Source: a virus
DNA: 29,111 bases
Direction: 5' to 3' (one strand)
IMG/VR virus record: IMGVR_UViG_3300027522_000021
Coordinates: 1 to 29,111 of that record
The notes beneath the pieces are model-generated. The model was not told the origin of the DNA. It did no database searches and was given only the letters and a program-made list of their open reading frames with translations. How positions within the stretch are numbered: position 1 is the stretch's first letter; the number at the start of each line of letters is the position of its first letter. This document shows positions 2 through 24,153 of this stretch, piece after piece. The position numbers and the translations under genes were made by a program.

Positions 2-2611
2 TTATATGACCCAAACGACCATGTTTTAGATTACATGAAAAGTAGTGAATGGAAAGCAGGAATGCCTGATGGTCCTAAAGATGATATAGAACCTGGATAC
101 AAATATAGAAGAGGAGGACAATATAGTGCAGCTTCAGGTATAGGAGGTGCTGGTGGAATGTATGAATCTAGAGGGGGAGAATCAGAATTACACATATACG
201 ATTTTGACGAAACAATAGCAAGAGTAGAAACCCCCATTCCCTACACAGTAGAATCTCCAGAAGGAAAAATAATAGAAAAAGGAGAAACTACATCTATAGA
301 TTTTGAAGAAAAAAAAGATTTTTTAAAAAATTCATATGATAAAGGAATTAAAATAAATTGGGATTTTAAAGCATTTGCAAATTTAATAAGTAAAGGTACA
401 TTAAATAATGAAGTATTCCAAAAACTTTTAAAGTCTATACAAAACCCAAATGCTAAAGTAACCATATTAACAGCAAGAGCTATAGGATTACCAGTTACAA
501 AATTTCTTAAAGATCAAGGAATATGGGCTTATGTAGTTCCTTTAGGATTAAATAAAGAAAAGGGACAACCAGTAACAGGGGAGGATAAAGCTAATTGGAT
601 AGAAAATAGAATTAAAGATACAACCAAAAAAGTCCTTTTTATAGATGATTCTTCAGAAAACAGAAAAGCAATATATACCTTAAGAGATAAATATCCAAAT
701 ATAGAATTTGATGTAGAAAATCCTCTTGAAATTGAGGAAATGATGGGTACTATGAATAATCAGGAAAAAGCCAAACATGCTAAAAATCTTAAACGTTTAA
801 GTAAGGATATGTCTAATATGAAAGGAAATAACTATGGGGGAGGAGGTTATAAAGTACCTAAATATATAAAAGGTACACTTACAAGAAAATTATACGAAGA
901 AATGTCAGCAGCAGACATAGACGCTGTAGATACATTCGCAGACAAACAACTTAACCCTGTTGATGTAGTATTAACAGACAAACATTTTTTCGATAGATTA
1001 AATGATCCTCGTAATAAAAAGGAAATATCTGGGGCAGAATTAATTGGGTTTTTTAAACGTTTAGCTAGAAAAAAAGATGAATTTGTTGAATTTTTAACTA
1101 AATATAAAGAATTAGTAGTTACGGATAACAGAACAAACCTTAACATCCCCTTTATGAAGTTAGCTAATAAGGCAATAGCTAAAACAGTAATGAGAAAAAA
1201 GGATTTCCAAACATCTAGCCCAAAATTATCAGTAGGAGAAGCAAATGGATGGGATGGGGCCTCATCAAAACATCCAGGTAATTGGGATGGTAAGCCATCA
1301 GAAAAAATTAAGAATAAACCTTTCCCAGCAGTGGGGGAAACAGTACGAGCTAAAAAAATGGAAGAAACAAAACTATTTTCACAAAATTGGTGGAAAGAAC
1401 AACTAACAGAAATCTTAACAGAAACAAAAGCAAACACACACCTAACACACCTTGAAGAATTAGTATTAACTCAAGGACAAGATGGTTATAACCAAGCAAA
1501 ATCATTTCTTTATGAATTAATTAAAAATTTAAAAGGAGAAGACAATAACATAAAAAATGTTTCTGTAAAATGGGATGGTGCCCCTGCAGTATGGGCGGGT
1601 ATTAATCCTGAAAATGGAAAATTCTTTGTGGGTATTAAAGGAATATTTAATACAGTTACCCCTAAAATTAATTATACTCCCCAAGACATAGATAAAAACC
1701 ATGGCCATTCAGGTGATTTAGTTAAAAAATTAAAATTAGCATTACAATATTTACCTGCTTTAGGAATAAAAAATATATTACAAGGTGATTTTATGTTTGA
1801 CAGTAATGATGTCCAAACAGACAATATAGATGGAGTTACACATTATACTTTTAGACCTAATACAATTAGATATGCAATTGAAGCAAATTCGGAAATAGGT
1901 AAAAAAATACTAAATGCTAAAATAGGAGTCATTTGGCATACAACTTATAATTCTTTAGAGCAACGTGATTTTTCATTTGGGGCAGATGTAAGTGGATTAA
2001 GTCAAACACCAGATGTTTGGTTTGACGATGCTTATTTTAAAGACGATACAGGAGTTTTATTAAGTAGCAAGGAAGAGGCTTTTGTATTAGAAAAAATCAA
2101 AGAAGCAGATTCAATTAATGTGGATTACGATGCATTACCAGATGAACTTTCTTCAAGAGCTAAAACAAATATGTTAAATACTTATTTAAACCAAGAAATA
2201 AGAAAAGGAGAATTTATTAATGATCCAAACAAATCTTTTGAACGATTTAAAAGTTGGTACCAATTAGCAGTTGACAAAAGTATTGAAAAAGTTAAACGAC
2301 CAGAATCAAAAGAAAGAAAGAAAACAGAGGGAGAAGAAAAATTAAAAATATTCGATTCTAAAAAAGAAATAGTACTTAATCTGTTTAAAGTAAGTAAATT
2401 GCTCTCTGAAGCAAAAGCTATATTTATTACCAAATATGATAAAGCTGTAGCAACTAAACACTTTATCGATAATGGAGATGGTACCTTAAGTGTAACTAAA
2501 GCAGAAGGTTTTGTAGCGGTTGACCATACAGAGAATGGTATCAAATTAGTTGACAGATTAGAATTTAGTAAAAATAACTTTAACGCAGGTAAACCTGGAG
2601 CAAAAAAATAA
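2..2611 (+). CDS. HAD phosphatase-like / KxDG nucleotidyltransferase-like fusion protein (5' partial)
   Basis: The frame is open to the left edge with no stop, so the first ATG (35) is probably internal. Numbering from that Met: residues 52-235 look like a HAD hydrolase, with motif I YDFDET (D56, D58), motif II LTAR (T146) and motif IV FIDD (D204, D205). This pattern resembles polynucleotide 3'-phosphatases. Residues 280-400 form a second conserved-looking block (HFFDRLNDPRN … AKTVMRKKDF). A Gly/Asp-rich linker follows. Residues 465-760 hold KWDGAPAVW (K512, D514, G515), GIKG (533-536) and QGDFMF (583-588), which resemble motifs I and IIIa of nucleotidyltransferases/ligases. From memory this part matches phage family DUF6267. 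The join of end-healing and end-sealing-like domains suggests nucleic-acid repair, but this is inference. It could instead be a virion protein with a degenerate fold. It starts the virion-accessory operon; the next gene begins 2 bases after its stop. Confidence 0.75.
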   Translation, partial: LYDPNDHVLDYMKSSEWKAGMPDGPKDDIEPGYKYRRGGQYSAASGIGGAGGMYESRGGESELHIYDFDETIARVETPIPYTVESPEGKIIEKGETTSIDFEEKKDFLKNSYDKGIKINWDFKAFANLISKGTLNNEVFQKLLKSIQNPNAKVTILTARAIGLPVTKFLKDQGIWAYVVPLGLNKEKGQPVTGEDKANWIENRIKDTTKKVLFIDDSSENRKAIYTLRDKYPNIEFDVENPLEIEEMMGTMNNQEKAKHAKNLKRLSKDMSNMKGNNYGGGGYKVPKYIKGTLTRKLYEEMSAADIDAVDTFADKQLNPVDVVLTDKHFFDRLNDPRNKKEISGAELIGFFKRLARKKDEFVEFLTKYKELVVTDNRTNLNIPFMKLANKAIAKTVMRKKDFQTSSPKLSVGEANGWDGASSKHPGNWDGKPSEKIKNKPFPAVGETVRAKKMEETKLFSQNWWKEQLTEILTETKANTHLTHLEELVLTQGQDGYNQAKSFLYELIKNLKGEDNNIKNVSVKWDGAPAVWAGINPENGKFFVGIKGIFNTVTPKINYTPQDIDKNHGHSGDLVKKLKLALQYLPALGIKNILQGDFMFDSNDVQTDNIDGVTHYTFRPNTIRYAIEANSEIGKKILNAKIGVIWHTTYNSLEQRDFSFGADVSGLSQTPDVWFDDAYFKDDTGVLLSSKEEAFVLEKIKEADSINVDYDALPDELSSRAKTNMLNTYLNQEIRKGEFINDPNKSFERFKSWYQLAVDKSIEKVKRPESKERKKTEGEEKLKIFDSKKEIVLNLFKVSKLLSEAKAIFITKYDKAVATKHFIDNGDGTLSVTKAEGFVAVDHTENGIKLVDRLEFSKNNFNAGKPGAKK

Positions 2612-2613
2612 AA

Positions 2614-3948
2614 ATGAAAAAATTTAATTACACAAAATGGCTAGTAGAACATAAACATGGTAAAACCATAAATGAAGAGTTAGATGCTAATAAAATAAAA
2701 GATTCATTAAAAAACTTAGCAAAAGAAAAAGATTTACCAGGATTTGGTCCTACTACTACGGTAGATGATGATGTAAGATCAGATTTAGTGGGAATAATAT
2801 TACCTTCATTAGAAAAAGCAAAAGCCCCAGAAGAATTAATAAAAAACCTAGAAATACTATCAAACAAATATAATACTGATCAAGGGGTCTCATTAGCACA
2901 ACAACCTGACGAAGTTAAAAACGCTATAACTTACTTAACAGGAGATGAAGCCCAAAAATCGGTAGATCAAATTGAGGATATAGCTGGGGGTCATGCAGAT
3001 GCATTAAAACCAGGAACAGAAAAAATATACACAGCAGATGCTTTTCCTGATGGTTTAAAAGATAGTGATTTTTATAAAAAAGCAGTAGAAGATGGTTGGA
3101 AATTTATAACTAAAAATAGTTTAACTCCAGATCAAGAAAAAATAGCAAAATCACTTCCAACAAAAAGTGATGGAACTCCTTTAAAAGAAAGAATTCAAGA
3201 ATTATCATTAGATCAAAAAGCTAAATTATATTTTATGGGTTTAGTTAGAAAAGGTATAATAGACACATTACCTGAAGATCCAAAAGCAGCTTACATTAGA
3301 GATATGATGGATAAAGAAGATCCTAAAATGGACCCAGCAATTAGATCTGATTTTGATGAGCCTATGTTTGAAAATGATGAAGATAAAGAAGAAGAAGAAG
3401 AAAAAAGATACACTTTAAAACCTCAAGATCCTAAAAAAATGAAAGATTATGGTTTAGGAAAGAGAATCCCAGGCGCAGGATTTGCTAAGCGAGGAAAAGA
3501 TATCAGTACAAAAGGGGAGAAGCAGTTTTCTGAAAATAAAGAAAAATCATTAAAAGAAATAGCATCTGAATTAGGATATTTAAAAGAAGAATATAATATG
3601 GATTTAATGAGATATCATGGTGGAGATAGAGATAAAGCAGCTATAGATGCATATGAAAAAGAGTATAAGAAGACAGAAGTAAGCGAAGTTGATGGTATAG
3701 AAGGAGGAATAAAAGACATTAATATTTGGTTTAATACTTCAGGTGGTTTTTATAGAACAGTTATTGATGGAGAAAAAAGAGTAAAAGGTTGGGATAGCTG
3801 GAGAGATGCACAAGAATCACTATCTAAATTATTAGGTAGGGAAATCCATTTAAGAAATATGGATGAAGAAAAATTAGAAACAGCAGCTACAGATTTATCT
3901 AAACAAGGGATTAAATTAACTTGGGATGATTCAATGGACGTAAGCTAA
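2614..3948 (+). CDS. Unrecognised 444-aa virion-accessory protein with CTS-like N-terminus
   Basis: I do not recognise a family. The N-terminus (MKKFNYTKWLVEHKHGKTINE) resembles T4 capsid-targeting sequences and ends in an (I/L)xE-type site (TINE, then E). Residues 20-245 appear mainly alpha-helical. A very acidic stretch (EDKEEEEEK, about residues 255-264) leads into a basic, Gly-rich linker. The C-terminal part from about residue 360 looks like a small alpha/beta domain with Trp and aromatic residues (INIWFNTSGGFYRT, GWDSWRDAQ). A further site-like SLKE lies at about residue 310. It starts 2 bases after the preceding stop, with an A-rich leader and no Shine-Dalgarno. An internal or core virion protein is plausible from context only. 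Confidence 0.7.
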   Translation: MKKFNYTKWLVEHKHGKTINEELDANKIKDSLKNLAKEKDLPGFGPTTTVDDDVRSDLVGIILPSLEKAKAPEELIKNLEILSNKYNTDQGVSLAQQPDEVKNAITYLTGDEAQKSVDQIEDIAGGHADALKPGTEKIYTADAFPDGLKDSDFYKKAVEDGWKFITKNSLTPDQEKIAKSLPTKSDGTPLKERIQELSLDQKAKLYFMGLVRKGIIDTLPEDPKAAYIRDMMDKEDPKMDPAIRSDFDEPMFENDEDKEEEEEKRYTLKPQDPKKMKDYGLGKRIPGAGFAKRGKDISTKGEKQFSENKEKSLKEIASELGYLKEEYNMDLMRYHGGDRDKAAIDAYEKEYKKTEVSEVDGIEGGIKDINIWFNTSGGFYRTVIDGEKRVKGWDSWRDAQESLSKLLGREIHLRNMDEEKLETAATDLSKQGIKLTWDDSMDVS

Positions 3949-3958
3949 AATAAAAGTT

Positions 3959-4549
3959 ATGCTAAAAAAAGAATTTAAAAGAAAAGACGTAAACAGAGCT
4001 CGTAATTTAATTATGGGCAAAACTGGTGCATCAACTGGTACACAAATTGGTTACAACACAAAACAAACAGACCATAAAGAAGGTGATGTTTGGACAGAAG
4101 GAAGAAAAACATGGACAATAAAAAATGGCATTAAGCAAACAGTATCTAAATTAGATGCTATTAAAAAAGAAGTATTTATACCTTTAAGTTGTCCTTGTTG
4201 TAATAAAATAATGAAAAAACGTTTAGATAAACCTAATTATAAAATACATAAAAAGTGTTTTGATTGTGTTGTAGAATTTGAACATAAATTAAAAATTAAT
4301 GGTAAATATGATAATTATATTAAAACTTTAAAAATAAATAATTCTTTTGATATAGTAAATGAAATGGAGTCATATTTATTAGATGTAGTAAACAGCAATT
4401 CTAATTCAGGATTTGTTTCTGAAGATGGTATTATTGAAAGATGGGTAGGAGGAACTAATAAAGATAAGCTTAGAAATAAAGTAAAAAAAGAATTTGACAT
4501 TGAAAGAAAAAAGCTAAAAAAAGAATTAAATGACAAAGAAGGAGCTTAG
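3959..4549 (+). CDS. Zinc-finger protein, conserved in T4-like phages, function unknown
   Basis: A 196-aa basic protein. The N-terminus contains a segment (about residues 15-60: RARNLIMGKTGASTGTQIGY … WTIKNGIKQTVSKLD) that I recall from hypothetical proteins of T4-superfamily marine phages. Residues 78-106 hold CPCC … KCFDC, a plausible four-Cys zinc ribbon with a basic loop. The C-terminal third is helical and Lys-rich, suggesting nucleic-acid binding. Its 3' end overlaps the next ORF by 20 bases, so translation is probably coupled. The small terminase or a DNA-binding accessory factor is conceivable from size and position, but nothing in the sequence proves it. Confidence 0.75.
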   Translation: MLKKEFKRKDVNRARNLIMGKTGASTGTQIGYNTKQTDHKEGDVWTEGRKTWTIKNGIKQTVSKLDAIKKEVFIPLSCPCCNKIMKKRLDKPNYKIHKKCFDCVVEFEHKLKINGKYDNYIKTLKINNSFDIVNEMESYLLDVVNSNSNSGFVSEDGIIERWVGGTNKDKLRNKVKKEFDIERKKLKKELNDKEGA

Positions 4550-4781
4550 AGAATTAGTAAAATCAGTAATTAAAGAATATATGGGTACTGGATCAAGTGG
4601 TGGACAAGTGGATAAATTCTCTTCTTCTCCTCGTATAGGGGGAACATTTTTATCTGATGAAGATGAATTAGAATTTTATAATAACCAAAATGCAGGAGAC
4701 GGAGGACAAGGTCACCAAACAAAAGGTATGGAAGTAACAAACATGGGTAATCCTAACAGAACACGCTTTACAAGATTTTAA
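4530..4781 (+). CDS. Small CTS-like virion protein candidate, 83 aa
   Basis: The start overlaps the preceding gene by 20 bases; the next gene begins 1 base after the stop. The N-terminal 16 residues (MTKKELRELVKSVIKE) form a basic amphipathic helix ending in a gp21-like cleavage motif (VIKE). Then comes a low-complexity Gly/Ser/Asn-rich body and a C-terminus rich in Arg and Phe (RTRFTRF). The body looks disordered. The N-terminus closely parallels those of the genes at 4783, 7084 and 7919. Function unknown; a small packaged protein is my inference. Confidence 0.65.
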   Translation: MTKKELRELVKSVIKEYMGTGSSGGQVDKFSSSPRIGGTFLSDEDELEFYNNQNAGDGGQGHQTKGMEVTNMGNPNRTRFTRF

Positions 4782-4782
4782 A

Positions 4783-6771
4783 ATGAAAAAAAAAGATATC
4801 ATACAATTAGTTAAAAAATCCATAAAAGAAATGAGGAAAGGCCATGAACATGATGGTTATGGAGCAGGTCATGAAGGTGGAAGAAATAGTATAAGTGGTA
4901 TGCCTGGAGTATGGGAGGGTGAATCTACTTCTTTTAAAGTAGTAAATATAGACACAGGAAAAACAATAGACTTTGGTATAGATCAAGCAAAAGCAGAAGA
5001 AATAGTAGCCGCAGCTAAAGAAGATAATATAAACGCTAAAGTAGTTAAAATGGAAAGTGATGATGATGTAGGTAAATTAAAAAACGAAGTAGGACCCCCA
5101 AACGACCCATATTTTAATGCTTTAGTTAAAAAAGCAGAAGAAATGGGAACCCATGTAAATGATCTTATAAAAAGTCTTTTAAAAGACAAATCTGAAATGG
5201 AAATAGTAAAAATGGATTATCAAGACCTAGCAGCTTTAGCAGGTGTAGAAAATTTAAGTGAAAGTCAAGGCACATTATCTTCTGACATGTTAAATTATGC
5301 AGACCAATATCATATGGAACTTGTAGACACAATGAAAGGTGTTTCAACTCATCCCGATAAAAGAACAGGAGGATTTAGGATTTTATTTCCACACTATAAT
5401 GGTCCTGATTATACAGGGGCAATGTTTGGTAAAGATGTTTCAGATAAGATTGAAAGATCTAAAGCAGCAGCAAAGGCAGCAGCACTTAAAACATACACTA
5501 AATTCCAAGATCAAATAGAAGATTACGAAATAACAGACCACTCTCGAGCAGGTGTTCATGGTAGTATTCATTTATGGATAATGCCTAAAAATAATATGAA
5601 TGAAGATTTTGAAAAAAATTATGGTGATAAAATAAAAGCAGACGATTTTAAAAATAACGAAAAACTACAACCAGGTAAAAAAGTAACATATTTAGGTACA
5701 TCCCGAACAATAGCTAAAAATAATGGCTTTATTCTAACATTAGACAATGGCACAACAGTAAATTTAGGTCAATTTAACCAAAAAGGCGCAATAAAAGAAA
5801 AAGATATGAAAAAAATAACAAAAGAAAAAAAATACGCTGGTAAAAAAGCTTTACCTGATATGTTAAAGGATCCAGATTTTCAAACTTTACAAGGTGATGA
5901 AAAAGAAGATGCAAAAAAAGATTTAACGTTAGGTAAATCAGTAAATTTAGAAGGAGAAGGTGATTGGGATAAATCAATGGGACAGGTAAATAATGATATC
6001 TCTAAAAATTTCTATGATGATGAAGATTTAGACAATCCAGATGAGGACTTAGTTATAATTGGTTCAGGATATTTAGACATTAAAAGTAAGTTTGGAGAAC
6101 GTCCTTCACAGACTAATGGTGAATATGCAGCGATAGGTCAAAAGGTTGTTGATCAATTACACAATGGCGATAAAGAGGCTGCTTTAAATTACATTTATAG
6201 TCAAATTAATGAAAATAAAGAAGAAGAGGTCTCAGCGCCTTTTGTTTTAGATTCAAAAACTATTGAAAACTTAAAACACCTAACTAATTTTAGAGGTGAT
6301 GAAAAAATTGAAGAACTAACAGGTTTAGCTAATTACATTTTAGATACCCCATCACCATCATTTGAAAAAACAGGTATGGGTGAAACTATGATGAGAGAGT
6401 ACATTAAAGAAAGAGGCAATGATAATTTAATGGAACATGTAGACAGATATAATAAAAGAGCTAGATTAATGGAGGGTGCTTGGAAAGATATGAACCCAAT
6501 GTTTGATAATGGACAAACAGATGATGAAATAGTTAAACATTATATTACTAAGGGAGTGGCACCAGAAAATATAGGTAAATTACCTACTCTCGTTGCTAAA
6601 TTTAGAAATAACTGGAATAGTGTTCAAAAAATAAAAACAGATCTTGAAATTTTAGACCAGGAAGCAGATGGACTTAAACAATCTACTCAACCAGCAGTAA
6701 GTGGAATGGAAGGGGGAATGGAAGAAGAAAAAACATTAGCCTCAGGTTTATTTAACGAAATTAAAAAATAA
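4783..6771 (+). CDS. Large multidomain virion-accessory protein, 662 aa, unrecognised
   Basis: The N-terminus (MKKKDIIQLVKKSIKEMRKG) repeats the basic-helix plus (I/L)xE theme, followed by a His/Gly-rich linker (HEHDGYGAGHEGG). Residues 50-95 look like a small alpha/beta unit. Residues 160-270 form a compact domain (LVDTMKGVSTHPDKR, GFRILFPHYNGPDYTG … HGSIHLWIMPKNN). Residues 296-335 resemble an SH3-like beta barrel (PGKKVTYLGTSRTI … LDNGTTVNLG). The C-terminal half is helical and acidic. No catalytic signature is evident. Size and neighbours suggest an internal or baseplate-associated protein, but there is no direct support for either. Confidence 0.7.
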   Translation: MKKKDIIQLVKKSIKEMRKGHEHDGYGAGHEGGRNSISGMPGVWEGESTSFKVVNIDTGKTIDFGIDQAKAEEIVAAAKEDNINAKVVKMESDDDVGKLKNEVGPPNDPYFNALVKKAEEMGTHVNDLIKSLLKDKSEMEIVKMDYQDLAALAGVENLSESQGTLSSDMLNYADQYHMELVDTMKGVSTHPDKRTGGFRILFPHYNGPDYTGAMFGKDVSDKIERSKAAAKAAALKTYTKFQDQIEDYEITDHSRAGVHGSIHLWIMPKNNMNEDFEKNYGDKIKADDFKNNEKLQPGKKVTYLGTSRTIAKNNGFILTLDNGTTVNLGQFNQKGAIKEKDMKKITKEKKYAGKKALPDMLKDPDFQTLQGDEKEDAKKDLTLGKSVNLEGEGDWDKSMGQVNNDISKNFYDDEDLDNPDEDLVIIGSGYLDIKSKFGERPSQTNGEYAAIGQKVVDQLHNGDKEAALNYIYSQINENKEEEVSAPFVLDSKTIENLKHLTNFRGDEKIEELTGLANYILDTPSPSFEKTGMGETMMREYIKERGNDNLMEHVDRYNKRARLMEGAWKDMNPMFDNGQTDDEIVKHYITKGVAPENIGKLPTLVAKFRNNWNSVQKIKTDLEILDQEADGLKQSTQPAVSGMEGGMEEEKTLASGLFNEIKK

Positions 6772-6775
6772 AAAT

Positions 6776-7072
6776 ATGTCATTAAACGCAAAAATAACAA
6801 GAGTAATATCATGTTCAGCAGCAAGTGAACACACAGGAAGTTTTGTAAAAATATACTGTCCTATAGCTACTACTTTTTCAAGAATTGAATTTGGAAATTC
6901 AAAAGAAACCCACTTTGTAGATGGTTATCCTGGATTTGCTGCAAGTAGAAGAGAAGTATCCCAAATCACAGGTATAGCAGGTGCTTTAACATCACCTGCG
7001 GGTTCGTATGTAGATGGTCCTATAGCAGCATTTAGAATAACTGCTGGTGGTGTAATAGCTTATGAAGGTTAA
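6776..7072 (+). CDS. Small beta-rich protein, possible virion decoration protein
   Basis: A 98-aa protein with no charged N-terminal helix, unlike its neighbours. It is rich in Ser, Gly, Ala, Ile and aromatic residues and predicted by eye to be all-beta (SGSFVKIYCPIATTF-like strands, final AFRITAGGVIAYEG). It starts 4 bases after the previous stop. Small beta proteins of this size in phage structural clusters are often head-decoration or tail proteins, but I see no diagnostic motif. Two Cys residues (13 and 28) are present. Confidence 0.65.
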   Translation: MSLNAKITRVISCSAASEHTGSFVKIYCPIATTFSRIEFGNSKETHFVDGYPGFAASRREVSQITGIAGALTSPAGSYVDGPIAAFRITAGGVIAYEG

Positions 7073-7083
7073 TACTTATTAGT

Positions 7084-7527
7084 ATGAAACAACTTAGAGA
7101 ACAAATAAGAAAAGAAATTAAAAAATTAATGGAAAAGGAAATGAGATCTTTTCCTGTCCCTCCTAAAATTAGAAAAGCTTTAGAAGAAAATCTTAGACTT
7201 TTTCCCCTAAAAAGATATGTAGCTACTTTAAAATCTGCAAACACAGTACCACCATCATACAGAGTATTTTTTCACAATAATCAATTTATTGATTTATACA
7301 TTGAACAAGTAACCCCGAAATTACTTGTAATAAAAGCTATAATAAGCAATAAACCTTTTAATATAACTGATCCAAGAGAAGCAAATTTAGCAATGGCTTT
7401 ACTAAATAAAACAATACTAACAGCTCCTATTCCAGTGTCTAGTGGTGAAGAAACATCAACAGATACAGATGATAGTCCAAGTGATGATGCAGTAACAGAA
7501 CCAGATGAAGAAGAAACAGAAGCATAA
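7084..7527 (+). CDS. CTS-like small protein with acidic tail, 147 aa
   Basis: The N-terminus MKQLREQIRKEIKKLMEKE is a strongly basic/acidic amphipathic helix ending in a glutamate that fits the LxxE pattern of prohead-protease sites. Residues 23-115 look like one alpha/beta domain (FFHNNQFIDLYIEQVTPKLL … LAMALLNKTIL). The last 30 residues are a disordered acidic Ser/Thr/Asp/Glu tail. The stop TAA shares a base with the ATG of the next gene (7527), so the two are likely translationally coupled. Function unknown. Confidence 0.65.
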   Translation: MKQLREQIRKEIKKLMEKEMRSFPVPPKIRKALEENLRLFPLKRYVATLKSANTVPPSYRVFFHNNQFIDLYIEQVTPKLLVIKAIISNKPFNITDPREANLAMALLNKTILTAPIPVSSGEETSTDTDDSPSDDAVTEPDEEETEA

Positions 7528-7922
7528 TGGAACTAAAAGAAGCCTTAGGGGAAATATTTAAAAAAGCAAAGGAGCAATTTGACATTCAAAATGTACCTTC
7601 TCTTCATCTTAAACAAGATGAGGAAAATGCTCAAGGCATCTTTGGCAAAACAGCATACTATGATCCTTCAAATATGTCTGTTGTATTATACATTACAAAC
7701 AGACACGATAAAGACATTTGTAGATCATTTGCACATGAATTAATTCATCACGTTCAAAATGAAAGAGGTGATTTAGAAATGGGAGATGCTTCTAGCCCAA
7801 CATACGCTCAAGATGATAAACATATGAGAAAAATGGAAATGGAAGCATATTTAAAAGGTAATCTTCTCTTTAGAGATTGGGAAGATTGGGTAAAAAATTA
7901 TAGAAAAACCAACCAAAAATGA
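7527..7922 (+). CDS. HExxH zinc metallopeptidase-like protein
   Basis: A 131-aa protein with HELIHH at residues 70-75 (H70, E71, H74), the zincin signature. E104 or E106 in MEMEAYLKG lies about 30 residues downstream and is a good candidate third zinc ligand. The chain is short for a full peptidase and is close to a minimal SprT/ImmA-type or phage putative metallopeptidase fold. Its N-terminal MELKEALGEIFKKAKEQF is helical but ends in no clear cleavage site. It shares a base with the upstream stop and overlaps the downstream start by 4 bases. Possible roles are virion maturation, entry or host-protein cleavage. The substrate is unknown. Confidence 0.75.
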   Translation: MELKEALGEIFKKAKEQFDIQNVPSLHLKQDEENAQGIFGKTAYYDPSNMSVVLYITNRHDKDICRSFAHELIHHVQNERGDLEMGDASSPTYAQDDKHMRKMEMEAYLKGNLLFRDWEDWVKNYRKTNQK

Positions 7923-8527
7923 AAAAATCCCAACTAAGAAATATAATCAAAGAAGAGATATCTAAAGTATTAAATGAAACAACATTAAACGAATCAAGTG
8001 AATCAGAACTGATAGATATATACAAACCAACCGCCTTTTGGAAGGACTTTAGGGAGGTTCTTGAGAAAGAATTAGCAAATTATAAGATGGAAGCTAGTGG
8101 ATGGATGAGTGCTGATGGAGATTTTGATGGAGGGAGTGATTGGAATGTAGTACAGCTACCATTCATTTCGAATACATGGGGTGTAAGTACTAGGACAGTA
8201 CATACACGATCTCATAGTAGTAGATCTGATGATAATGAACTTATGAGCAAGACTCAAATAACTATATCAGTTGATGGTGTAATGGACATCAGCATGGTTG
8301 TAGAAAGAAATCATGCAGATGGGAATTTCGCTGTTAGATCATCAGACCTAAAATGGTTCCACCCATTCAAAGAAAGTGTTTTCGAAATGGATTTAGGTAT
8401 GAGCTACTCAGCAGGGGATTCTGGCCGTGAATTAGTAGATTATATAGTAAAAGATATAAAATATGCAGTCAAAAAGCGAGGAAAAATAATAAGTGGTGCT
8501 ATATTCAAAATAGTAGAAAGTGATTAA
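7919..8527 (+). CDS. CTS-like protein, 202 aa, unrecognised
   Basis: The start overlaps the metallopeptidase stop by 4 bases (ATGA-type coupling). The N-terminus MKKSQLRNIIKEEISKVLNE is the clearest example of the shared basic helix ending in an LxE site, and a second site-like TLNE follows five residues later. The body (residues 35-200) looks like one globular alpha/beta domain: WMSADGDFDGGSDWN, strand-rich ITISVDGVMDISMVVERN, then a C-terminal helix-strand ending GAIFKIVESD. No family recognised. A packaged protein cleaved from its N-terminal tag is my inference. Confidence 0.65.
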   Translation: MKKSQLRNIIKEEISKVLNETTLNESSESELIDIYKPTAFWKDFREVLEKELANYKMEASGWMSADGDFDGGSDWNVVQLPFISNTWGVSTRTVHTRSHSSRSDDNELMSKTQITISVDGVMDISMVVERNHADGNFAVRSSDLKWFHPFKESVFEMDLGMSYSAGDSGRELVDYIVKDIKYAVKKRGKIISGAIFKIVESD

Positions 8528-8560
8528 TAATCAAAATGATTTAAACAAAAACAAAACGTT

Positions 8561-8956
8561 ATGAGTATATTAACAAATTTATTTTCAGGTGGTGCAGCTG
8601 ACCTGGTAAAAGGTGTAGGTGGTGTAATAGATAATTTACATACCTCAAAAGAAGAAAAATTAGCTGCAGAAGCAAAAATTAAAGCTTTAATAGCAGAACA
8701 CGAAGCTAAAATGGAACAAAACATAACTGATCGTTGGTCAGCTGATATGAATTCAGACTCTTGGTTAAGTAAAAATGTTAGACCCTTAGTCTTAATATTT
8801 TTAGTTGTTTCCACAGTTTTAATGATATTTATCGACGCAGGAACAATCAACTTTACTGTTGAAGCTAAATGGACAGATTTACTTCAATTAGTATTAATTA
8901 CAGTGATTGGTGCCTATTTTGGTGGGCGTACAATGGAAAAAAGAAATAAAAAATAA
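8561..8956 (+). CDS. Holin, GTA_holin_3TM-like
   Basis: A 131-aa membrane protein. An amphipathic N-terminus (MSILTNLFSGGAADLVKGVGGVID) is followed by a charged helix (28-60), then WSADMNSDSWLSKNVRPL leading into TM1 (about 75-92) and TM2 (about 106-121). It ends in GGRTMEKRNKK. The charged helix, the SWLSKNVRP-type junction and the YFGGRTMEK end fit the three-helix holin family first described in gene-transfer agents, as I recall it. Such holins form membrane lesions that time lysis. No endolysin is visible next to it. It is preceded by 33 noncoding bases with an A-rich leader. Confidence 0.75.
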   Translation: MSILTNLFSGGAADLVKGVGGVIDNLHTSKEEKLAAEAKIKALIAEHEAKMEQNITDRWSADMNSDSWLSKNVRPLVLIFLVVSTVLMIFIDAGTINFTVEAKWTDLLQLVLITVIGAYFGGRTMEKRNKK

Positions 8957-8962
8957 ATAAAA

Positions 8963-9472
8963 ATGGCAAAACAATTATTAAAAGAACGATTCCAAGAATT
9001 AGCAGGTATCAAACCTCTATATGAAAATGAAGCTAGTCAAGTTTTAATAGTAACTTCTGAATATGGAACTGAAGTAGAAATCACAGATCCTGAAGACATA
9101 AAAGCTTTTTTAGCAGGTGAAGAGGTTAACGGAGAAGATTCCCAGGGGGGAACAGTAGAAGTTAGTTTAGATAACGCACAAGATCATCGAATAAATGAAG
9201 AAAATTTTGATAATATAAGCTTCGATGATAAAGTTGCAACTTTTGGTGCTGCAGGCTCAGATAAAAGAACAGGCCAAGTAATAGGTGACATACTTCAACT
9301 AATTAAATCTACTCAAATAGACCCAATGGAGGTAATGGGGGAAATTGGTGAAGAATTTAAAATTAATTTTCAATTCACTGGATTTGATGGAAAGGGAAAA
9401 GGTGGTTACACACCCCCAGATGATGGACTTCCTAAAATGGATCCAGATAATTGGGGTTTTAAAAATCAATAA
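8963..9472 (+). CDS. CTS-like acidic protein, 169 aa
   Basis: The N-terminus MAKQLLKERFQELAGIKPLY followed by ENEA has an amphipathic helix and a cleavage-like ENE|A junction similar to that of the capsid protein. The remainder is acidic and probably partly disordered: a beta-like stretch (QVLIVTSEYGTEVEITD), a Gly/Glu region, a helix around residues 105-130 and a Gly/Pro/Asp-rich tail. It is the last gene before a strong terminator, so it ends the transcription unit. Function unknown. Confidence 0.65.
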   Translation: MAKQLLKERFQELAGIKPLYENEASQVLIVTSEYGTEVEITDPEDIKAFLAGEEVNGEDSQGGTVEVSLDNAQDHRINEENFDNISFDDKVATFGAAGSDKRTGQVIGDILQLIKSTQIDPMEVMGEIGEEFKINFQFTGFDGKGKGGYTPPDDGLPKMDPDNWGFKNQ

Positions 9473-13744: not shown

Positions 13745-13756
13745 TATATTTATAAC
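13745..13756 (+). promoter_or_regulatory. Candidate late-promoter motif upstream of portal
   Basis: TATATTTATAAC, ending 13 bases before the portal ATG. It is identical over 12 bases to the copy at 26621. Confidence 0.45.
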
Positions 13757-13769
13757 AAACAAATAAAAA

Positions 13770-15611: not shown

Positions 15612-15620
15612 GAATAGTCT

Positions 15621-15632
15621 TATATTTATATA
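15621..15632 (+). promoter_or_regulatory. Candidate late-promoter motif
   Basis: TATATTTATATA, in the 45-base gap after the portal gene and 24 bases before the ATG at 15657. Confidence 0.4.
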
Positions 15633-15656
15633 CGATAAATTCGAATTTATAAAAAT

Positions 15657-16499
15657 ATGAAAGTAAAGCATTCTAAGTACAAAAATACTGGGATTTTATT
15701 TGAACTTCTTACTAGGCAGTTGACTTCCGACACTATTACAGGAAATCAAACAAAATCATTGTCTTTTTTGAAAAAACACTTTAATTCTAAAACAGAATTA
15801 TTAAAAGAGTATAAAATATATCATACATTAGCTACACAAAAGTATAACAAAGATAGTCAAGCTACAATGTTAATTGATACTTTGTTAGAAGCGCATGGAA
15901 AGTTAAATAAAAGTCAGTTAAGAAGAGAAAAATATAATCTTATTAAAGAAATTAAAGAAAGTTACAACGTAAATGATTTCTTTAAAGCAAAAATAACAGA
16001 TTATAAAGTAATGGCATCCATTTTTAATTTATTAGAAAATAAAAAAGCCACAGCACTATCAATAGTTAATTCTAAAGTAAATATTTTAGAACACATTACT
16101 ATAAAACCAACAGTAGCTAAAAAAGACACAGTTTTAGAAAACTTTAGCAAACAAGACAGTGACACTAGATTACTAACTTACAAAGTCTTACTTGAAAAAT
16201 TTAACAGTAAGTATAGTGGTTTACAAGACAACCAAAAAACACTCCTAAAAGAATATGTTAACAGCGTTACTAATAGCCCTGCTCTTAAGTCTTATCTCAA
16301 CCAAGAAATCAAAGAAGTTAAAAAAACTATTACAGGATATTCTAAAAAAGTTGAAGATAAAGCAGTAGTCGTAAAATTAACTGAGACTAGAGACATGATT
16401 AAACCATTATGTAAAAAATCATCTGTAAATGATGATAACGTTATTAACTTGCTTAACTATTATGAATTAGTAAATGAGTTAAAAACAATCCATGGTTAG
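15657..16499 (+). CDS. Putative prohead core-associated protein, 280 aa
   Basis: A Lys-rich, almost entirely helical protein (KVKHSKYKNTGILFELLTRQLTS at the start; repeated helices to the end). It lies between portal and prohead protease, where T4 carries the core genes 67 and 68. I do not recognise its sequence family with certainty. Helical content and high charge fit a prohead core or scaffold-assisting role, which is inferred from position. It overlaps the following gene by 8 bases. Confidence 0.7.
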   Translation: MKVKHSKYKNTGILFELLTRQLTSDTITGNQTKSLSFLKKHFNSKTELLKEYKIYHTLATQKYNKDSQATMLIDTLLEAHGKLNKSQLRREKYNLIKEIKESYNVNDFFKAKITDYKVMASIFNLLENKKATALSIVNSKVNILEHITIKPTVAKKDTVLENFSKQDSDTRLLTYKVLLEKFNSKYSGLQDNQKTLLKEYVNSVTNSPALKSYLNQEIKEVKKTITGYSKKVEDKAVVVKLTETRDMIKPLCKKSSVNDDNVINLLNYYELVNELKTIHG

Positions 16500-16827
16500 T
16501 CTTACTGACATATATAATATAAAAGAATCATCTTTTAGTGAATTAAAAAAAGATAGAGATCCTGCTAGGGGAAATAAAGGCAAAACAGATACAAAAGATT
16601 TTTATTTTGTAGATGAACCTGCAGATCCAGAAACGGGACAAATAAAGTCAAAAGTAGTATATAAACGTTCTTTTAAAAAAATGGTAGCAGATTTAGAAGC
16701 AGAAGCAATAGATTTAAATAAACTATCAGAAGATAATCCAGATGATATGGTATTATATAAAATGTCTGAAGATTTAAAAGAATTATTTAATAATTTTAGA
16801 ACACACGTAAGAAAAAACTATGAGTAA
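16492..16827 (+). CDS. Small charged head-module protein, 111 aa
   Basis: Starts 8 bases inside the previous gene and ends 8 bases inside the next, suggesting coupled translation. The N-terminus is polar (SFSELKKDRDPARGNKG). A central DFYFVDEPADPETGQIKSKVVYKR looks like a beta hairpin. The last 50 residues form an acidic helix (VADLEAEAIDLNKL … MSEDLKELFNNFRTHVRKNY). Not recognised. By position a core/internal head protein. Confidence 0.65.
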   Translation: MVSLTDIYNIKESSFSELKKDRDPARGNKGKTDTKDFYFVDEPADPETGQIKSKVVYKRSFKKMVADLEAEAIDLNKLSEDNPDDMVLYKMSEDLKELFNNFRTHVRKNYE

Positions 16828-17239
16828 AAAATTTAACATACACGATTGGCAAGCAAAACAAAGAAAACAACTTTTAACAGAAAGTTTAAACCCAGAAGTA
16901 TCTAGAGCATTAGACCGTTTTATTAGAACAATGGCAGACAAATATAATTACTCTATGCAAAATGCTGTTTATGCTATTATAGCTGCTCTTAAACAAAGAA
17001 ATTATGATGGTTTAGGTGAACACCACAACGATGAAGATTTTCCAGGAAAAGATTTAAGCGCTTGGCAATTATTAGATAAATTAAAAAAAGGCAACGAAGA
17101 TTTATACAATGATGTTGAAAATTTTATGAAAAAAACAAATGAAGCAAGTGGAACAAGCGCAGCTGTCACAATAAATAATCCTGGAGTATCAGGTACTGGA
17201 CCTCATTTTGGTGACGCTACAAAGAAAAAAAATAAATAA
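16820..17239 (+). CDS. Putative core protein with two gp21-like cleavage sites (gp67/68 position)
   Basis: A 139-aa protein. The N-terminus (MSKKFNIHDWQAKQRKQLLT followed by ES) resembles a capsid-targeting tag with a LLTE|S site. Near residue 110 a second site-like TNE|ASGTS closely resembles the capsid protein's VNE|ASSTG junction. Between them lies a compact helical domain (ALDRFIRTMADKYNYSMQNA … AWQLLDKLKKGNEDLYND). The tail is Gly/Thr-rich and basic. Placed immediately before the prohead protease, as small core proteins are in T4. Its role is inferred from position and sites. Confidence 0.7.
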   Translation: MSKKFNIHDWQAKQRKQLLTESLNPEVSRALDRFIRTMADKYNYSMQNAVYAIIAALKQRNYDGLGEHHNDEDFPGKDLSAWQLLDKLKKGNEDLYNDVENFMKKTNEASGTSAAVTINNPGVSGTGPHFGDATKKKNK

Positions 17240-17240
17240 C

Positions 17241-17852
17241 ATGCTATTACAAGAATACAGACCGTTTAAAGTAGACAAACAATTAGTTGAATCTTCTATA
17301 AGAGAAAACAAAACACTAATAGTTACAGGTAAACTCCAAGCGGCAGATACTAAAAACCAAAATGGTAGAATATATCCTGAAGGTATTCTTAAAAGAGAGG
17401 TTGAAGCTTACATGAAGGGTCCTGTAGCTGAAAATAGAGCAATGGGTGAATTAGACCACCCTGAATCATCTGTAATTAATTTACAAAATGTTTCTCACAC
17501 AATTAAAAGATGTTGGTGGGAAGGTGATTCAGTAATGGGCGATGTTGAAGTATTAAACACACCAGCGGGAAACATATTAAAAGCATTATTTGCCTCAGGT
17601 ATTACAGTTGGTATTTCATCTCGTGGTATGGGTTCAGTTTCAGAAAATCTATCAGAAGGTACAGTTGAAGTACAAGATGATTTTGAATTATTATGTTGGG
17701 ATTTTGTTTCAACACCATCAACACACGGTGCTTTTATGGCTCCTAAAGGTTTAAATGAAGGCAAAATACAAATGCCAGAATATAAATATACAAACGTAAA
17801 CAACATAATCCGCGACATTATCTGCGATAATACAGGGATGTGTAAATGTTAG
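17241..17852 (+). CDS. Prohead core protease (gp21-like)
   Basis: A 203-aa serine protease of the herpesvirus/HK97/T4 gp21 superfamily, which matures the prohead. His73 lies in GELDHPES. The catalytic serine is in GISSRG (S126 or S127). The fold continues with DFELLCWDFVSTPS. The start at 17241 (MLLQEYRPFK) is preferred over an in-frame ATG at 17208 that would overlap the previous gene by 32 bases, because homologues begin near this sequence and it lies 1 base after the upstream stop. The C-terminus carries LNE|GKI, a likely autocleavage site, and an unusual Cys-rich end (ICDNTGMCKC). T4 gp21 has 212 aa. Confidence 0.93.
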   Translation: MLLQEYRPFKVDKQLVESSIRENKTLIVTGKLQAADTKNQNGRIYPEGILKREVEAYMKGPVAENRAMGELDHPESSVINLQNVSHTIKRCWWEGDSVMGDVEVLNTPAGNILKALFASGITVGISSRGMGSVSENLSEGTVEVQDDFELLCWDFVSTPSTHGAFMAPKGLNEGKIQMPEYKYTNVNNIIRDIICDNTGMCKC

Positions 17853-17855
17853 TCG

Positions 17856-18529: not shown

Positions 18530-18574
18530 ACTTAGTATTAATTAAAAAAAGACCTGGTAACAGGCATTAAAAAA

Positions 18575-18799: not shown

Positions 18800-18825
18800 T
18801 AGTTTTTTAGAACATATTTACTAAG

Positions 18826-18998: not shown

Positions 18999-20117
18999 AT
19001 GGCAAAAAACATTTTAAAAGAAGCTATCGCTGACGCTAAGGCAGTTCGTGAAGTTGCTCTTGCAAATGCAAAAGCCGCACTAGAAGAAGCTTTTACACCC
19101 AAACTACAATCTATGTTATCTGCTAAATTATCTGAAACTTTAAATGAAGAAGAAGAAGAATTAGAAGAAACATATATGGATGAAAAAATGGACGAAACTA
19201 TGGATGAAACATACATGGATGAGGAAATGGATGAAATCACGGGTATGGAAAATAAAGGCGAAGATCTAGATGAGGTAATTGATTTGGAAGAAATTCTTAA
19301 TGAACTAGAATTAGAAGAAGGCGAAGTGGAAGAAGAAGAAGAAGAAGAAAAAGAAGAAGATTTAAAAGAAATGGAAGTTAACTACAAAGCAGAAACAGCT
19401 AACCGTGCAGGTTACGCAGCTGATTATGTTCATGAAGGAAACGAAAATTTTGACTTAGATGCTCTTCTTGAAGAGATTAACAATTTAGACGAAAACGAAG
19501 ACGAAGTTAATGAAGGTGACTTTGGTGAAGCTAAGGATGAAGTTGATGAGTATGTAGAACCTAGAGCAAAAGGCGGATTAGGATCAAAATCTGGAGATTT
19601 AGTACCTTTAGAAGGAGAAAGCTTTGAAGATTATCAACAAAGAGTTCCATCCTCACCTTGGATTAAATGGTTTAAAGCAGATGGCGCTCGTATTAAAGCT
19701 AACTTTTCTGAAGGTGCTTCTGTATATGAAGAACTTGAAGAAACTAAATCAGCTTTAGAAACAGTTCGTACTGAACTTAACGAAGTCAATTTGTTAAACT
19801 CTAAATTATTGTATGTTAACAGAATTTTTAAAGCAAACACTTTAAATGAAGGACAAAAACTACGTGTAGTTGAAACTTTAGACAAAGCTGAAACTGCTAA
19901 AGAAGCTAAGTTAATTTACGAAACAATCAAGGACACTTTCACTGTTGCTAATAACAAGAAAACATCCTTTAAAAACAAAACGAAATCATTAAAAGAAGGA
20001 ATCGGAATGGCTTCTAGAGCAGCTGGTACATCTACTGCTCCTAAGAAACCAGTTCTTAATGAATCGACTAATATGGTAAATCGTTTCCAAAAATTAGCAA
20101 ACATTAAAATTAATTAA
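18999..20117 (+). CDS. Prohead scaffold protein (gp22-like)
   Basis: A 372-aa highly acidic protein. A helical N-terminus (ILKEAIADAKAVREVALANA) leads to an acidic region with tandem YMDEKMDE/TMDETYMDEEMDE units (about 58-80) and a Glu run (about 110-122). The C-terminal part has a coiled coil (about 245-275, ELEETKSALETVRTELNEVN) followed by LLNSKLLYVNRIFKANTLNE and later helices, a pattern characteristic of gp22 C-termini. Protease-like sites include TLNE, SLKE and VLNE|S. It lies directly upstream of the capsid gene, as expected. Scaffold is cleaved and leaves the head before DNA fills it. Confidence 0.88.
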   Translation: MAKNILKEAIADAKAVREVALANAKAALEEAFTPKLQSMLSAKLSETLNEEEEELEETYMDEKMDETMDETYMDEEMDEITGMENKGEDLDEVIDLEEILNELELEEGEVEEEEEEEKEEDLKEMEVNYKAETANRAGYAADYVHEGNENFDLDALLEEINNLDENEDEVNEGDFGEAKDEVDEYVEPRAKGGLGSKSGDLVPLEGESFEDYQQRVPSSPWIKWFKADGARIKANFSEGASVYEELEETKSALETVRTELNEVNLLNSKLLYVNRIFKANTLNEGQKLRVVETLDKAETAKEAKLIYETIKDTFTVANNKKTSFKNKTKSLKEGIGMASRAAGTSTAPKKPVLNESTNMVNRFQKLANIKIN

Positions 20118-20142: not shown

Positions 20143-21867
20143 ATGAATAACAACGTAAACAATTTGTTAGAAGGCGCAAGCCCTTACCAAGTTCTTTCCG
20201 AGCAGTCAGCTAAATTAGCTAACAAATGGGAAAAATCAGGACTTTTAGAGGGAATTGAATCTTCTACAGAAAAAAATAACATGTCAATGTTATTAGAAAA
20301 TCAAGCTAAACAGCTTGTAAATGAAGCTAGTTCTACAGGAACTGACGCTTCATTTAGTGCAGGTAACTCTGAAGCATGGGCGGGTGTAGCTCTTCCATTA
20401 GTAAGAAGAGTATTTGGAGAAATAGTAGCAAAAGACCTAGTGTCAGTTCAGCCAATGAACTTACCAGCAGGTTTAATTTTCTACCTTGACTTTCAATATG
20501 GCACAGCTCAAAACTTTAAAGGTGCTAACGAATCACTTTATGGTGCTGCTGGGTCTACTTCAACAACTATTAAAAGAACTGACGGTGATCTTAATAAAGG
20601 TCTTTATGGTGCAGGTGAATTTGGTTACTCAGTAACTCAAAGTAACTCATCAACATTAGCACAAGAAGCAGGAGCAGCTACTTCAGCAGTTTCAACTACA
20701 AAATACCAAACAGGTTCAGCTGCTTTTGCAAACATATTGAATTTAGATACTGACTTCTCAGCTTCTCAAGCAGGTAAGTTTGGAGCAACAAGTGGTGCTA
20801 AATCAGTAGTTAAAACATTAGCAGTTTTAGCTACAGATTTAACTGATCATGATCCTGAAGCAATTAGAGCATTTAAAGTAGGATTTGCTGCTGCTGCTAG
20901 TTTATCAGGTTCATTCCCACAATTTACAAGATTAAACAACAATAATGTTGAATTTGTAATTTCTTCATCAGCGGGTATAGCTCCTGGTAATGTTACTATT
21001 ACTTACTTAAAAGGACCAGATAATTTAGATGATAGAGGTGACTTTGAAGATTCAATTCCATCTGCTGGTGTTTCAACTCAATCAATTCCTGAAATTAATG
21101 TTAAATTAATCAGTGATACAGTTGCTGCTAAAACACGTAAATTGAAAGCACAATGGACTCCTGAGTTCGCTCAAGATCTTAATGCTTATCATTCAATTGA
21201 CGCTGAAGCAGAATTAACTTCAATCTTAAGTGAGTACATTTCAATGGAAATTGATTTAGAAATCTTAGATATGTTAATCAGAAACGCTGATACAGTTGAA
21301 GGATGGAGTGCTAAAGTTGCACAAGATGTATCTGTAAGTTCAAATACTACTGCAGGTGGTACATCAAACGTTACTTACACATCAACAAATAACTCAGGTG
21401 GTGTATATTACACTAAAATGTCTTGGTTCCAAACTTTAGGTGTTAAATTACAGAAAGTTTCTAACTTAATTCACCAGAAAACTTTAAGAGGTGGTGCTAA
21501 TTTCTTAGTAGTTTCTCCAAAAGTTTCTACAATCTTAGAATCTATCCCAGGATTTGCAGCTGACTCAGCAGGAGAAAGCAGTAAATATAATATGGGTGTT
21601 CAAAAGATTGGTGCAATAAACAACAGATATACAGTTTACAAAAACCCTTACATGACTGAAAATGTTATCTTAATGGGTTATAAAGGATCTCAATTCCTTG
21701 AAACTGGTGCTGTTTTTGCTCCTTACATTCCGTTAATCATGACTCCTCTAGTATACGATCCAGTATCATTCACGCCAAGAAAAGGTATTATGACTAGATA
21801 TGCTAAGAAAATGGTAAGACCTGATTTCTATGGTAAAGTATTAATTCAAGACTTAAACGATCTTTAA
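20143..21867 (+). CDS. Major capsid protein (gp23-like)
   Basis: A 574-aa HK97-fold capsid protein. An N-terminal 61-residue helical propeptide ends in QLVNE|ASSTG, matching the position of T4 gp23 cleavage by gp21 (near residue 65). Conserved gp23 blocks are LPLVRRVFGEIVAKDLVSVQ (about 86-105), LKAQWTPEFAQDLNAYHSID, VVSPKVSTILES and YKNPYMTENVILMGYKGS. It is somewhat longer than T4 gp23 (521 aa). Codons are cleaner and C-richer than in neighbours, consistent with high expression. A strong terminator follows. Confidence 0.96.
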   Translation: MNNNVNNLLEGASPYQVLSEQSAKLANKWEKSGLLEGIESSTEKNNMSMLLENQAKQLVNEASSTGTDASFSAGNSEAWAGVALPLVRRVFGEIVAKDLVSVQPMNLPAGLIFYLDFQYGTAQNFKGANESLYGAAGSTSTTIKRTDGDLNKGLYGAGEFGYSVTQSNSSTLAQEAGAATSAVSTTKYQTGSAAFANILNLDTDFSASQAGKFGATSGAKSVVKTLAVLATDLTDHDPEAIRAFKVGFAAAASLSGSFPQFTRLNNNNVEFVISSSAGIAPGNVTITYLKGPDNLDDRGDFEDSIPSAGVSTQSIPEINVKLISDTVAAKTRKLKAQWTPEFAQDLNAYHSIDAEAELTSILSEYISMEIDLEILDMLIRNADTVEGWSAKVAQDVSVSSNTTAGGTSNVTYTSTNNSGGVYYTKMSWFQTLGVKLQKVSNLIHQKTLRGGANFLVVSPKVSTILESIPGFAADSAGESSKYNMGVQKIGAINNRYTVYKNPYMTENVILMGYKGSQFLETGAVFAPYIPLIMTPLVYDPVSFTPRKGIMTRYAKKMVRPDFYGKVLIQDLNDL

Positions 21868-22660: not shown

Positions 22661-23812
22661 ATGGCAAACATCTCTATATGGCCCGGCTCATCATCATTTG
22701 ATGCAACTGCAACACCCTTTTCATTTTATGATACAGACACTGTATTTCAAACAGACGCAGTTAATATAGCAGATTGGTGTGCTAAACGTTTAGGATACCC
22801 CCTAGTAGATATTGAATTACAAGCAGCTAATTTTTTTACTTGTTTTGAAGAAGCTACTAATGAATATGGGGCCCAACTATATAATTTTCAAATAATAAAT
22901 AATTTTCAAACTTTAGAGGGAAACACAACAGGTTCAGATTATAATAACCAATTAATAACTCCTAATATGGGGGGTACTATTAATGTATCTGAACAATATG
23001 GAAATGAAACAGATGGGGGTGGGGGAGATTATGAATTATTATCAGGATCCTTAGAAGTAACAGTAGGTCAACAATCATACGATTTACTATCAGCTATAGG
23101 TTCTACAATTAGTGGTTCAGAAGCAGTTTATATTAAAAGAATTAAACATTACCAACCAGCAGCAATTAATAGATACTTTGATCCTTACGCAGGTACAGGT
23201 ACAGGAATTCAATCTTTAATGCAAAGTTTTGGATTTGGTAATTTTTCACCGGGTGTAAATTTTATGTTAATGCCTTTAAGTTTTGATTTACAAAAACTAC
23301 AAGCAATTGAATTAAATGATACAATTAGAAAATCAGGATATCATTTTAATATAGAAGCAAATAGATATTTAAAATTATTTCCTATCCCCAATAGAAATTA
23401 TACATTATGGTTTGAATACCAATTAAAATCAGTAGCAAATGCTCCTATTAAAGATACATCACCTAATTTAATAACAGATATATCAAATGTTCCTTACACT
23501 ACTCCCACATATTCTTTTATAAACCAACCAGGAAGACAATGGATTAGAAGATATGCTTTAGCATTAGCTAAAGAAATGTTAGGAAGTATAAGAGGTAAAT
23601 ACCAAACAATTCCTATTCCTGGAGATACAACAACTTTAGATTATACTAGACTATTATCAGAAGCTAAAGAAGAAAAAGATAAATTAATCACTGAATTAAA
23701 AGAATTACTTGAAGAAACTACAAGATTAAAACAACTTGAAAGAAAAAATCAAGAAGCACAACAAACACAAGAAACATATTATAAAGTACCATACCATATT
23801 TATATAGGATAA
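22661..23812 (+). CDS. Neck protein (gp13-like, head completion)
   Basis: A 383-aa protein. Residues 36-75 (IADWCAKRLGYPLVDIELQAANFF … EEATNEYG) match the N-terminal helix pattern of T4-type gp13, where a WCxxRLG-like segment precedes a helix with EA..EY. A beta-rich middle (SGSLEVTVGQQSYDLLSAI … IKRIKHYQP) and LKLFPIPNRNYTLWFEY follow. Around residue 300, WIRRYALALAKEMLGSIRGKY is another gp13-like block. The C-terminal 50 residues form a Gln/Glu/Lys coiled coil. gp13 with gp14 seals the filled head. Followed by a gene sharing its stop (1-base overlap). Confidence 0.82.
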   Translation: MANISIWPGSSSFDATATPFSFYDTDTVFQTDAVNIADWCAKRLGYPLVDIELQAANFFTCFEEATNEYGAQLYNFQIINNFQTLEGNTTGSDYNNQLITPNMGGTINVSEQYGNETDGGGGDYELLSGSLEVTVGQQSYDLLSAIGSTISGSEAVYIKRIKHYQPAAINRYFDPYAGTGTGIQSLMQSFGFGNFSPGVNFMLMPLSFDLQKLQAIELNDTIRKSGYHFNIEANRYLKLFPIPNRNYTLWFEYQLKSVANAPIKDTSPNLITDISNVPYTTPTYSFINQPGRQWIRRYALALAKEMLGSIRGKYQTIPIPGDTTTLDYTRLLSEAKEEKDKLITELKELLEETTRLKQLERKNQEAQQTQETYYKVPYHIYIG

Positions 23813-24153
23813 TGATAAAATTAAAAGACATACTATCAGAAGTAATGAACACTTACCAAATACAGGCATCCCTTATGTCTGATAGAGGGACGGGTATCAC
23901 AAATATATTAGATCAAATTAGAGGTTTAGAAAAAGTAACAATTGTAAATAATATTACACCCCCCGAATATGTTCAAAAAGAAAAAATTGAATATACAAGA
24001 GTAAAAATTAAATTCGTATCAAGAACTGACCCAAAAGCAGACATAGTAAAAATGCAAAAAGATATGTTAACTTCTAATTTAAAAACATCAGACATGAGAA
24101 TAGATGGGTTAAAAAATGTTAAATTTAGAATAGAAACCCTAAGAAGATTGTAA
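23812..24153 (+). CDS. Small neck-region protein, ferredoxin-like fold, 113 aa
   Basis: It shares a base with the gp13 stop and with the next start (1-base overlap at each end), so it is tightly coupled to the neck genes. After a short N-terminal MIKLKDILSEVMNTY (LSE site-like), the body looks alpha/beta: DRGTGITNILDQIRGLEKVTI, KIEYTRVKIKFVSR, a helix with DIVKMQKDMLTSN, and a final strand NVKFRIETLRRL. This resembles small ACT/ferredoxin-like phage proteins of unknown role. A head-tail joining function is inferred only from position. Confidence 0.7.
   Translation: MIKLKDILSEVMNTYQIQASLMSDRGTGITNILDQIRGLEKVTIVNNITPPEYVQKEKIEYTRVKIKFVSRTDPKADIVKMQKDMLTSNLKTSDMRIDGLKNVKFRIETLRRL

Follow-up and report, generated by a model that had tools for sequence, protein, structure and literature searches.

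We analyzed a stretch of virus DNA of 29,111 nucleotides (positions 1 to 29,111 of IMG/VR record IMGVR_UViG_3300027522_000021), here referred to as the window. The window is part of a marine T4-like phage, and its head genes, from 12155 to 23812, encode a terminase, portal, Peptidase_S77 protease, scaffold, gp23-type capsid protein, and head-tail adaptor. A preliminary description had claimed that seven genes, starting at 2614, 4530, 4783, 7084, 7919, 8963, and 16820, carry tag-like N-termini. The translations of the open reading frames confirm this: all seven begin with a tag of 16 to 23 residues closing in an LxE-type site. The claim that the bodies behind the tags differ completely was likewise borne out, as they share no mutual similarity (blastp, best E value 0.36). 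Instead of the one common tag that had been described, however, the tags fall into no fewer than three unrelated classes by sequence: A (KKSxLRxIIKE), B (KFNYxKW), and C (ERFQELAGIK). The features are listed below; each tag ends at its predicted cut, and a slash within a peptide marks a cleavage position, predicted for the phages described here.

35..2611, + strand: 3' portion of a fusion gene with DUF6267 at its end; frame open to the left edge
about 1358..1423, + strand: internal tag MEETKLFSQNWWKEQLTEILTE, with upstream domains on one side and the DUF6267 domain on the other
2614..2676, + strand: class B tag MKKFNYTKWLVEHKHGKTINE on a 444-aa protein (gene 2614-3948)
4530..4577, + strand: class A tag MTKKELRELVKSVIKE on an 83-aa protein (gene 4530-4781)
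4783..4830, + strand: class A tag MKKKDIIQLVKKSIKE on a 662-aa protein (gene 4783-6771)
7084..7134, + strand: class A-like tag MKQLREQIRKEIKKLME on a 147-aa protein (gene 7084-7527)
7919..7978, + strand: class A tag MKKSQLRNIIKEEISKVLNE on a 202-aa protein (gene 7919-8527)
8963..9031, + strand: class C tag MAKQLLKERFQELAGIKPLYENE on a 169-aa protein (gene 8963-9472); its core matches the scaffold C-terminus
16820..16882, + strand: class B tag MSKKFNIHDWQAKQRKQLLTE on a 139-aa protein (gene 16820-17239), with the portal on one side and the protease on the other
17241..17852, + strand: prohead protease, Peptidase_S77, gp21 type (domain match 17310-17762)
18999..20117, + strand: gp22-like scaffold, with protease and capsid genes on either side; named from position, acidic composition, and a family of 101 homologues
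20064..20114, + strand: scaffold C-terminal peptide STNMVNRFQKLANIKIN, behind the candidate site PVLNE/S
20143..20325, + strand: major capsid protein propeptide, ending QLVNE/A, predicted cut after Glu61
23812..23841, + strand: weaker candidate short tag MIKLKDILSE (gene 23812-24153), its one basis being likeness to T4-length tags

Untagged genes (3959, 6776, 7527, and 8561) alternate with the tagged ones. One of them, at 7527-7922, encodes a small zinc metallopeptidase-like protein with an HELIHH motif and no clear tag, and another small protein (18089-18529), with the protease and scaffold as neighbors, has a signal-peptide-like start (MKNLIMTLAVAILTTFAASAQ). Neither Pfam nor PHROG gave a match for most tagged bodies, and DUF6267 is the only confident Pfam match among the bodies scanned.

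Sharing of tags among unrelated proteins

Genes were called on 135 sequences, comprising the window, related viral contigs, and the head region of Flavobacterium phage immuto. Proteins were grouped by the part behind residue 25, which gave 172 body families, and N-termini were compared between groups only. Family pairs sharing a segment at a score of ≥40 numbered 115 for the N-termini; the controls gave 3 (residues 32 to 55), 2 (shuffled N-termini), and 4 (C-termini). The N-terminal links join the three classes in a single large network; related phages have, apart from it, a further class, MQWSLEDVYKKRVRGNIPPRKHLDVLGE. Aligning N-termini across related phages, a check proposed in the preliminary description, yielded 100 tagged proteins in 46 body families, with likeness limited to the N-terminus. 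The tag type of gene 2614, for example, heads different bodies in contigs L006, L008, L020, L033, L037, L063, L064, and others. The fourth class lies upstream of DUF6267 (L124:8657, L125:8823, L126:1679, L128:8774, L129:8815, and L130:8664); there, the 28-residue start is 63 to 90% identical, and the bodies behind it are mostly unrelated and fast-changing.

The nearest isolated relative is immuto (terminase 58% and capsid protein 55% identical), which has a like gene block upstream of the terminase with tags of the same kinds. Profiles trained without immuto found 9 tagged proteins in its complete genome, compared with a shuffle mean of ∼1; at a stricter score, there were 6, compared with 0 in shuffles. 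Tags also occur beyond the head block: some tagged immuto genes lie among replication and metabolism genes (L143:1803-2318 and L143:25061-25456) or near baseplate genes (81525). Over 42 kb of LR756508, class A heads 9 of 47 proteins, with 0 in shuffles. This segment (138-180 kb of a 484-kb metagenomic phage record) has a diverged S77 match, and its nine class A proteins lie around head genes. A scan of 50 kb of the unrelated Cellulophaga phage phi38:1 gave no tag matches. A tblastn search over phages with the tags alone was too insensitive, and searches of literature text found neither the tag strings nor DUF6267 together with "N-terminal."

At the same residues, tag codons agree at 0.71 to 0.77, compared with 0.52 to 0.59 predicted from codon usage, which indicates that the tags share recent DNA ancestry; the codons nonetheless vary synonymously, so it is the peptide that is kept. 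This agreement, together with the Lys/Glu-rich composition of the N-termini, is what could be expected if the sharing reflected chance, AT-rich composition bias, or a conserved DNA element at gene starts. We consider any such origin extremely improbable, given that shuffled N-termini fail to reproduce the sharing, that phi38:1 is free of matches, and that the class C peptide also occurs at the opposite end of the scaffold protein. Chance and composition are ruled out by the shuffled and positional controls, and a conserved DNA element as the sole cause is ruled out by the synonymous variation.

Predicted cut sites, the prohead protease, and DUF6267

The protease passes the Pfam model PF03420 with 99.1 bits against a curated cutoff of 27. 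T4 gp21 cleaves after L/I-x-E (PMC9026906), and the tag ends in the window fit this published motif. Matching sites in capsid and scaffold, which had been claimed along with the protease, are present as QLVNE/A in the capsid protein and as the candidate PVLNE/S in the scaffold. Capsid proteins of this group carry QLVNE/A or QLLDE/A near residue 60; T4 gp23 is cut after residue 65. The portal (13770-15611) has a possible protease site near its C-terminus, ILTE/GDNNG, and T4 gp20 is reported to be unprocessed (PMC5694885). The preliminary description would have been contradicted by tags occurring mainly in phages without a gp21-type protease. We found the Pfam S77 model to match 14 of the 23 records with tags; the 9 that it does not match are fragments in which a capsid gene match is likewise missing, so they provide no argument against linkage to the protease.

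Between residues 12 and 30, every class B tag (100%) and 95% of those of class C have an LxE-type motif, whose distance from the core varies. The corresponding values are 38% and 48% in shuffles and 20% and 10% at residues 45 to 63 of the same proteins. In class A, the LxE (IKE) belongs to a repeated helix, and thus its count alone shows no separate site. Homologue alignment of the class A-like 7084 family shows that Glu17 is invariant and that length varies directly behind it, and the predicted structure of the 7084 protein has residues 2 to 18 as a separate N-terminal helix.

A comparable boundary lies inside the DUF6267 fusion. The full 1042-aa form, with an N-terminal GGFKPPHKGHY domain, is present in a 100% identical contig (L090:819-3947), and its interdomain tag reads NWWKEQLTEILTE. 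The Glu at the DUF6267 boundary, just before the residue that precedes KANTHL, is conserved in 35 of 35 homologues, 33 of which have L or I at P3. As a standalone protein in other T4-like phages, the same domain bears T4-type tags at that boundary (LDFKNFITE/Q in C48C1 and KFTQFLAE/S in DLP6). The DUF6267 proteins of P-HM2 and S-PM2 have no tag and start almost directly at the domain, and P-HM2 GC190 also lacks one. DUF6267 (PF19782; window 1418-2608) has KWDGAPA and EGFVAVD motifs. Foldseek alone gave no significant match for it; in structural comparison, ligases top the list at Z scores of 5 to 6, and KWDGAPA fits K-x-D-G, so that the domain may be a nucleic acid ligase. In cyanophages and pelagiphages, DUF6267 and a cytidylyltransferase are encoded side by side by two genes; in the window's group, DUF6267 is fused behind GGFKPPHKGHY.

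The cytidylyltransferase T4-GC190, which adjoins DUF6267 in cyanophages, has been reported in purified S-SM1 virions (PMC3037559). S-SM1 GC190 starts MKKFSAFLNE/A and aligns with the T4 sequence MKTYQEFIAE/A, with which IPII and IPIII begin, at its key positions: by mutation, residues 4 and 7 of the T4 tag target, and 8 and 10 matter for cutting (PMC9026906). The evidence from S-SM1 is of GC190's presence in virions, not of tag removal. The T4 form (aromatic 4 and 7, aliphatic 8, and Glu 10) fits only the C48C1, DLP6, and S-SM1 tags and none of classes A, B, and C.

The helices could alternatively dock to another structure, such as the tail, baseplate, membrane, or coiled-coil partners, with LxE incidental to a Lys/Glu-rich helix. 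Class A is indeed an amphipathic helix with LxE within its repeat, and one tagged immuto gene adjoins baseplate genes. We nevertheless judge this improbable because it leaves unexplained the floating LxE of classes B and C, the invariant Glu at the DUF6267 boundary, and the scaffold match described below.

Class C tags and the scaffold C-terminus

The core of class C, RFQxLAGIK, recurs as the C-terminal peptide of the scaffold encoded by the same phage; in the window, this scaffold ends PVLNESTNMVNRFQKLANIKIN. This scaffold protein has no PHROG family match, so the name gp22-like rests on position and composition; its homologues sit at the same place between the protease and major capsid protein genes. 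Immuto repeats the pattern, with a scaffold ending in RWQKLAGIIK and tags reading RMQKLAGIITE and RMQFLAGIITE. We scanned IMG/VR with a DNA pattern for [RS]FQ(E/K)LAGIK and obtained at least 81 in-frame matches. All those listed lie at protein ends: at least 69 at the extreme C-terminus, nearly all of scaffolds, and at least 12 at residues 8 to 11 of assorted small proteins. Within the analyzed sequence set, 100 scaffold sequences and 4 other proteins have a relaxed form of the motif at the C-terminus, and 33 proteins have it at the N-terminus; shuffles gave 0.7 and 1.3. In class C tags and scaffolds alike, an LxE-type site separates this peptide from the remainder of the protein: scaffolds commonly have the E site before the peptide, and tagged proteins have the LxE site behind it.

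Among non-scaffold proteins, a 212-aa protein (L057:9414-10052) combines a class A start with a scaffold-like RMQKLANIK end, and proteins in L189, L216, and L244 end in the same motif. Classes A and B have no matching segment in scaffold, capsid, portal, or protease, and this comparison thus revealed no head protein that they might mimic. The LR756508 capsid protein start, MNNFDLSQF, fits the class B regular expression as a single case.

Tag classes also replace one another. Homologous bodies carry class B in L020 and class C in L064 (57% identity, E value 5e-29), with homology beginning just behind the tag. A further B/C swap involves L037 (B) and L107 (C), and an A/C swap involves L028 (A) and L259 (C; 39%, E value 7e-12). 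Such replacement suggests a common destination and, since class C matches the scaffold end, the simplest shared destination is the prohead interior.

In both P22 and herpes simplex virus, it is the C-terminal end of the scaffold that holds the shell protein (PMC12005531). By analogy, the C-terminal peptide is probably the part that holds this scaffold to the shell, and cargo bearing its copy would therefore dock at the scaffold's site. We consider it probable that the N-termini are removable prohead-targeting peptides. Counting against this reading are the tagged immuto genes outside the head block, the untagged P-HM2 and S-PM2 homologues, and the lack of a head-protein match for classes A and B. 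During head assembly, a tag would bind the growing core and shell and bring an unrelated protein inside; the gp21-type protease would then cleave the LxE site at the tag end, leaving the protein free in the head. Class C would copy the scaffold end so that its cargo docks at the scaffold's docking place, and classes A and B would arrive at the same place through other contacts. We favor, with somewhat less confidence, scaffold mimicry as the principle: a copy of the docking peptide and a protease site fused to arbitrary proteins, with several interchangeable tags serving one entry route. From sequence, binding, packaging, and cleavage of the tagged proteins are thus predicted, the residue-level cuts from motif and conservation. 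Injection into the host, which we liken to T4 IPI (PMC3012670), is the least certain part. Of the earlier proposal of a capsid-targeted cargo set, the targeting is supported by the protease, the L/I-x-E ends, the scaffold match, and the S-SM1 virion protein; its single-tag form is not.

Tagged proteins might instead be minor core or scaffold parts, like T4 gp67 and gp68, that are mostly degraded rather than carried as virion cargo. The 16820 gene occupies the portal-protease interval, T4's place for gp67 and gp68, and several bodies are acidic and of low complexity, as at the C-terminus of the 7084 family. We regard this as rather unlikely, though the strongest of the alternatives, because the 46 body families and the fast turnover of bodies behind the 28-aa tag look like accessory cargo, and some bodies (DUF6267) are enzyme-like.

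Relation to known targeting systems

The tags probably represent a variant of the T4 capsid-targeting system. They resemble the targeting sequences of T4 IPI, IPII, and IPIII in being short N-terminal peptides on unrelated bodies, with an L/I-x-E end and a gp21-type protease. Unlike those of T4, they comprise at least three unrelated tags per phage group, are mostly longer (16 to 28 aa), and occur on many more proteins; they include a class that matches the scaffold C-terminus, and they are also found at internal and C-terminal positions. T4 Alt has N- and C-terminal propeptides cut after ITE and LTE (PMC5694885), and the L057 protein with a tag-like peptide at each end is similar in layout. 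Packaged ejection proteins of the giant phages phiKZ and SPN3US likewise have N-terminal propeptides removed by a protease (PMC5694885); cleavage is predicted here, and the SPN3US propeptides, in contrast, mostly exceed 100 residues. The short scaffold C-terminal peptide has counterparts in the P22 scaffold and in herpesvirus UL26/UL26.5, and the capsid protein of herpes simplex virus binds the 25 residues at the scaffold's end (PMC12005531). Unlike in those systems, the RFQxLAGIK peptide, whose binding is putative, is also fused to other proteins.

How T4 puts particular proteins in the prohead core is, according to a recent review, still mysterious (PMC9958956). The class C match predicts that the tag binds at the place that binds the scaffold end. 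If true, scaffold mimicry names a binding partner for the capsid-targeting sequence, which in T4 is unexplained. The tags also offer new short sequences for loading proteins into phage heads, as well as a sequence rule for spotting packaged proteins in abundant, mostly uncultured marine phages, whose tagged proteins are almost without annotated function.
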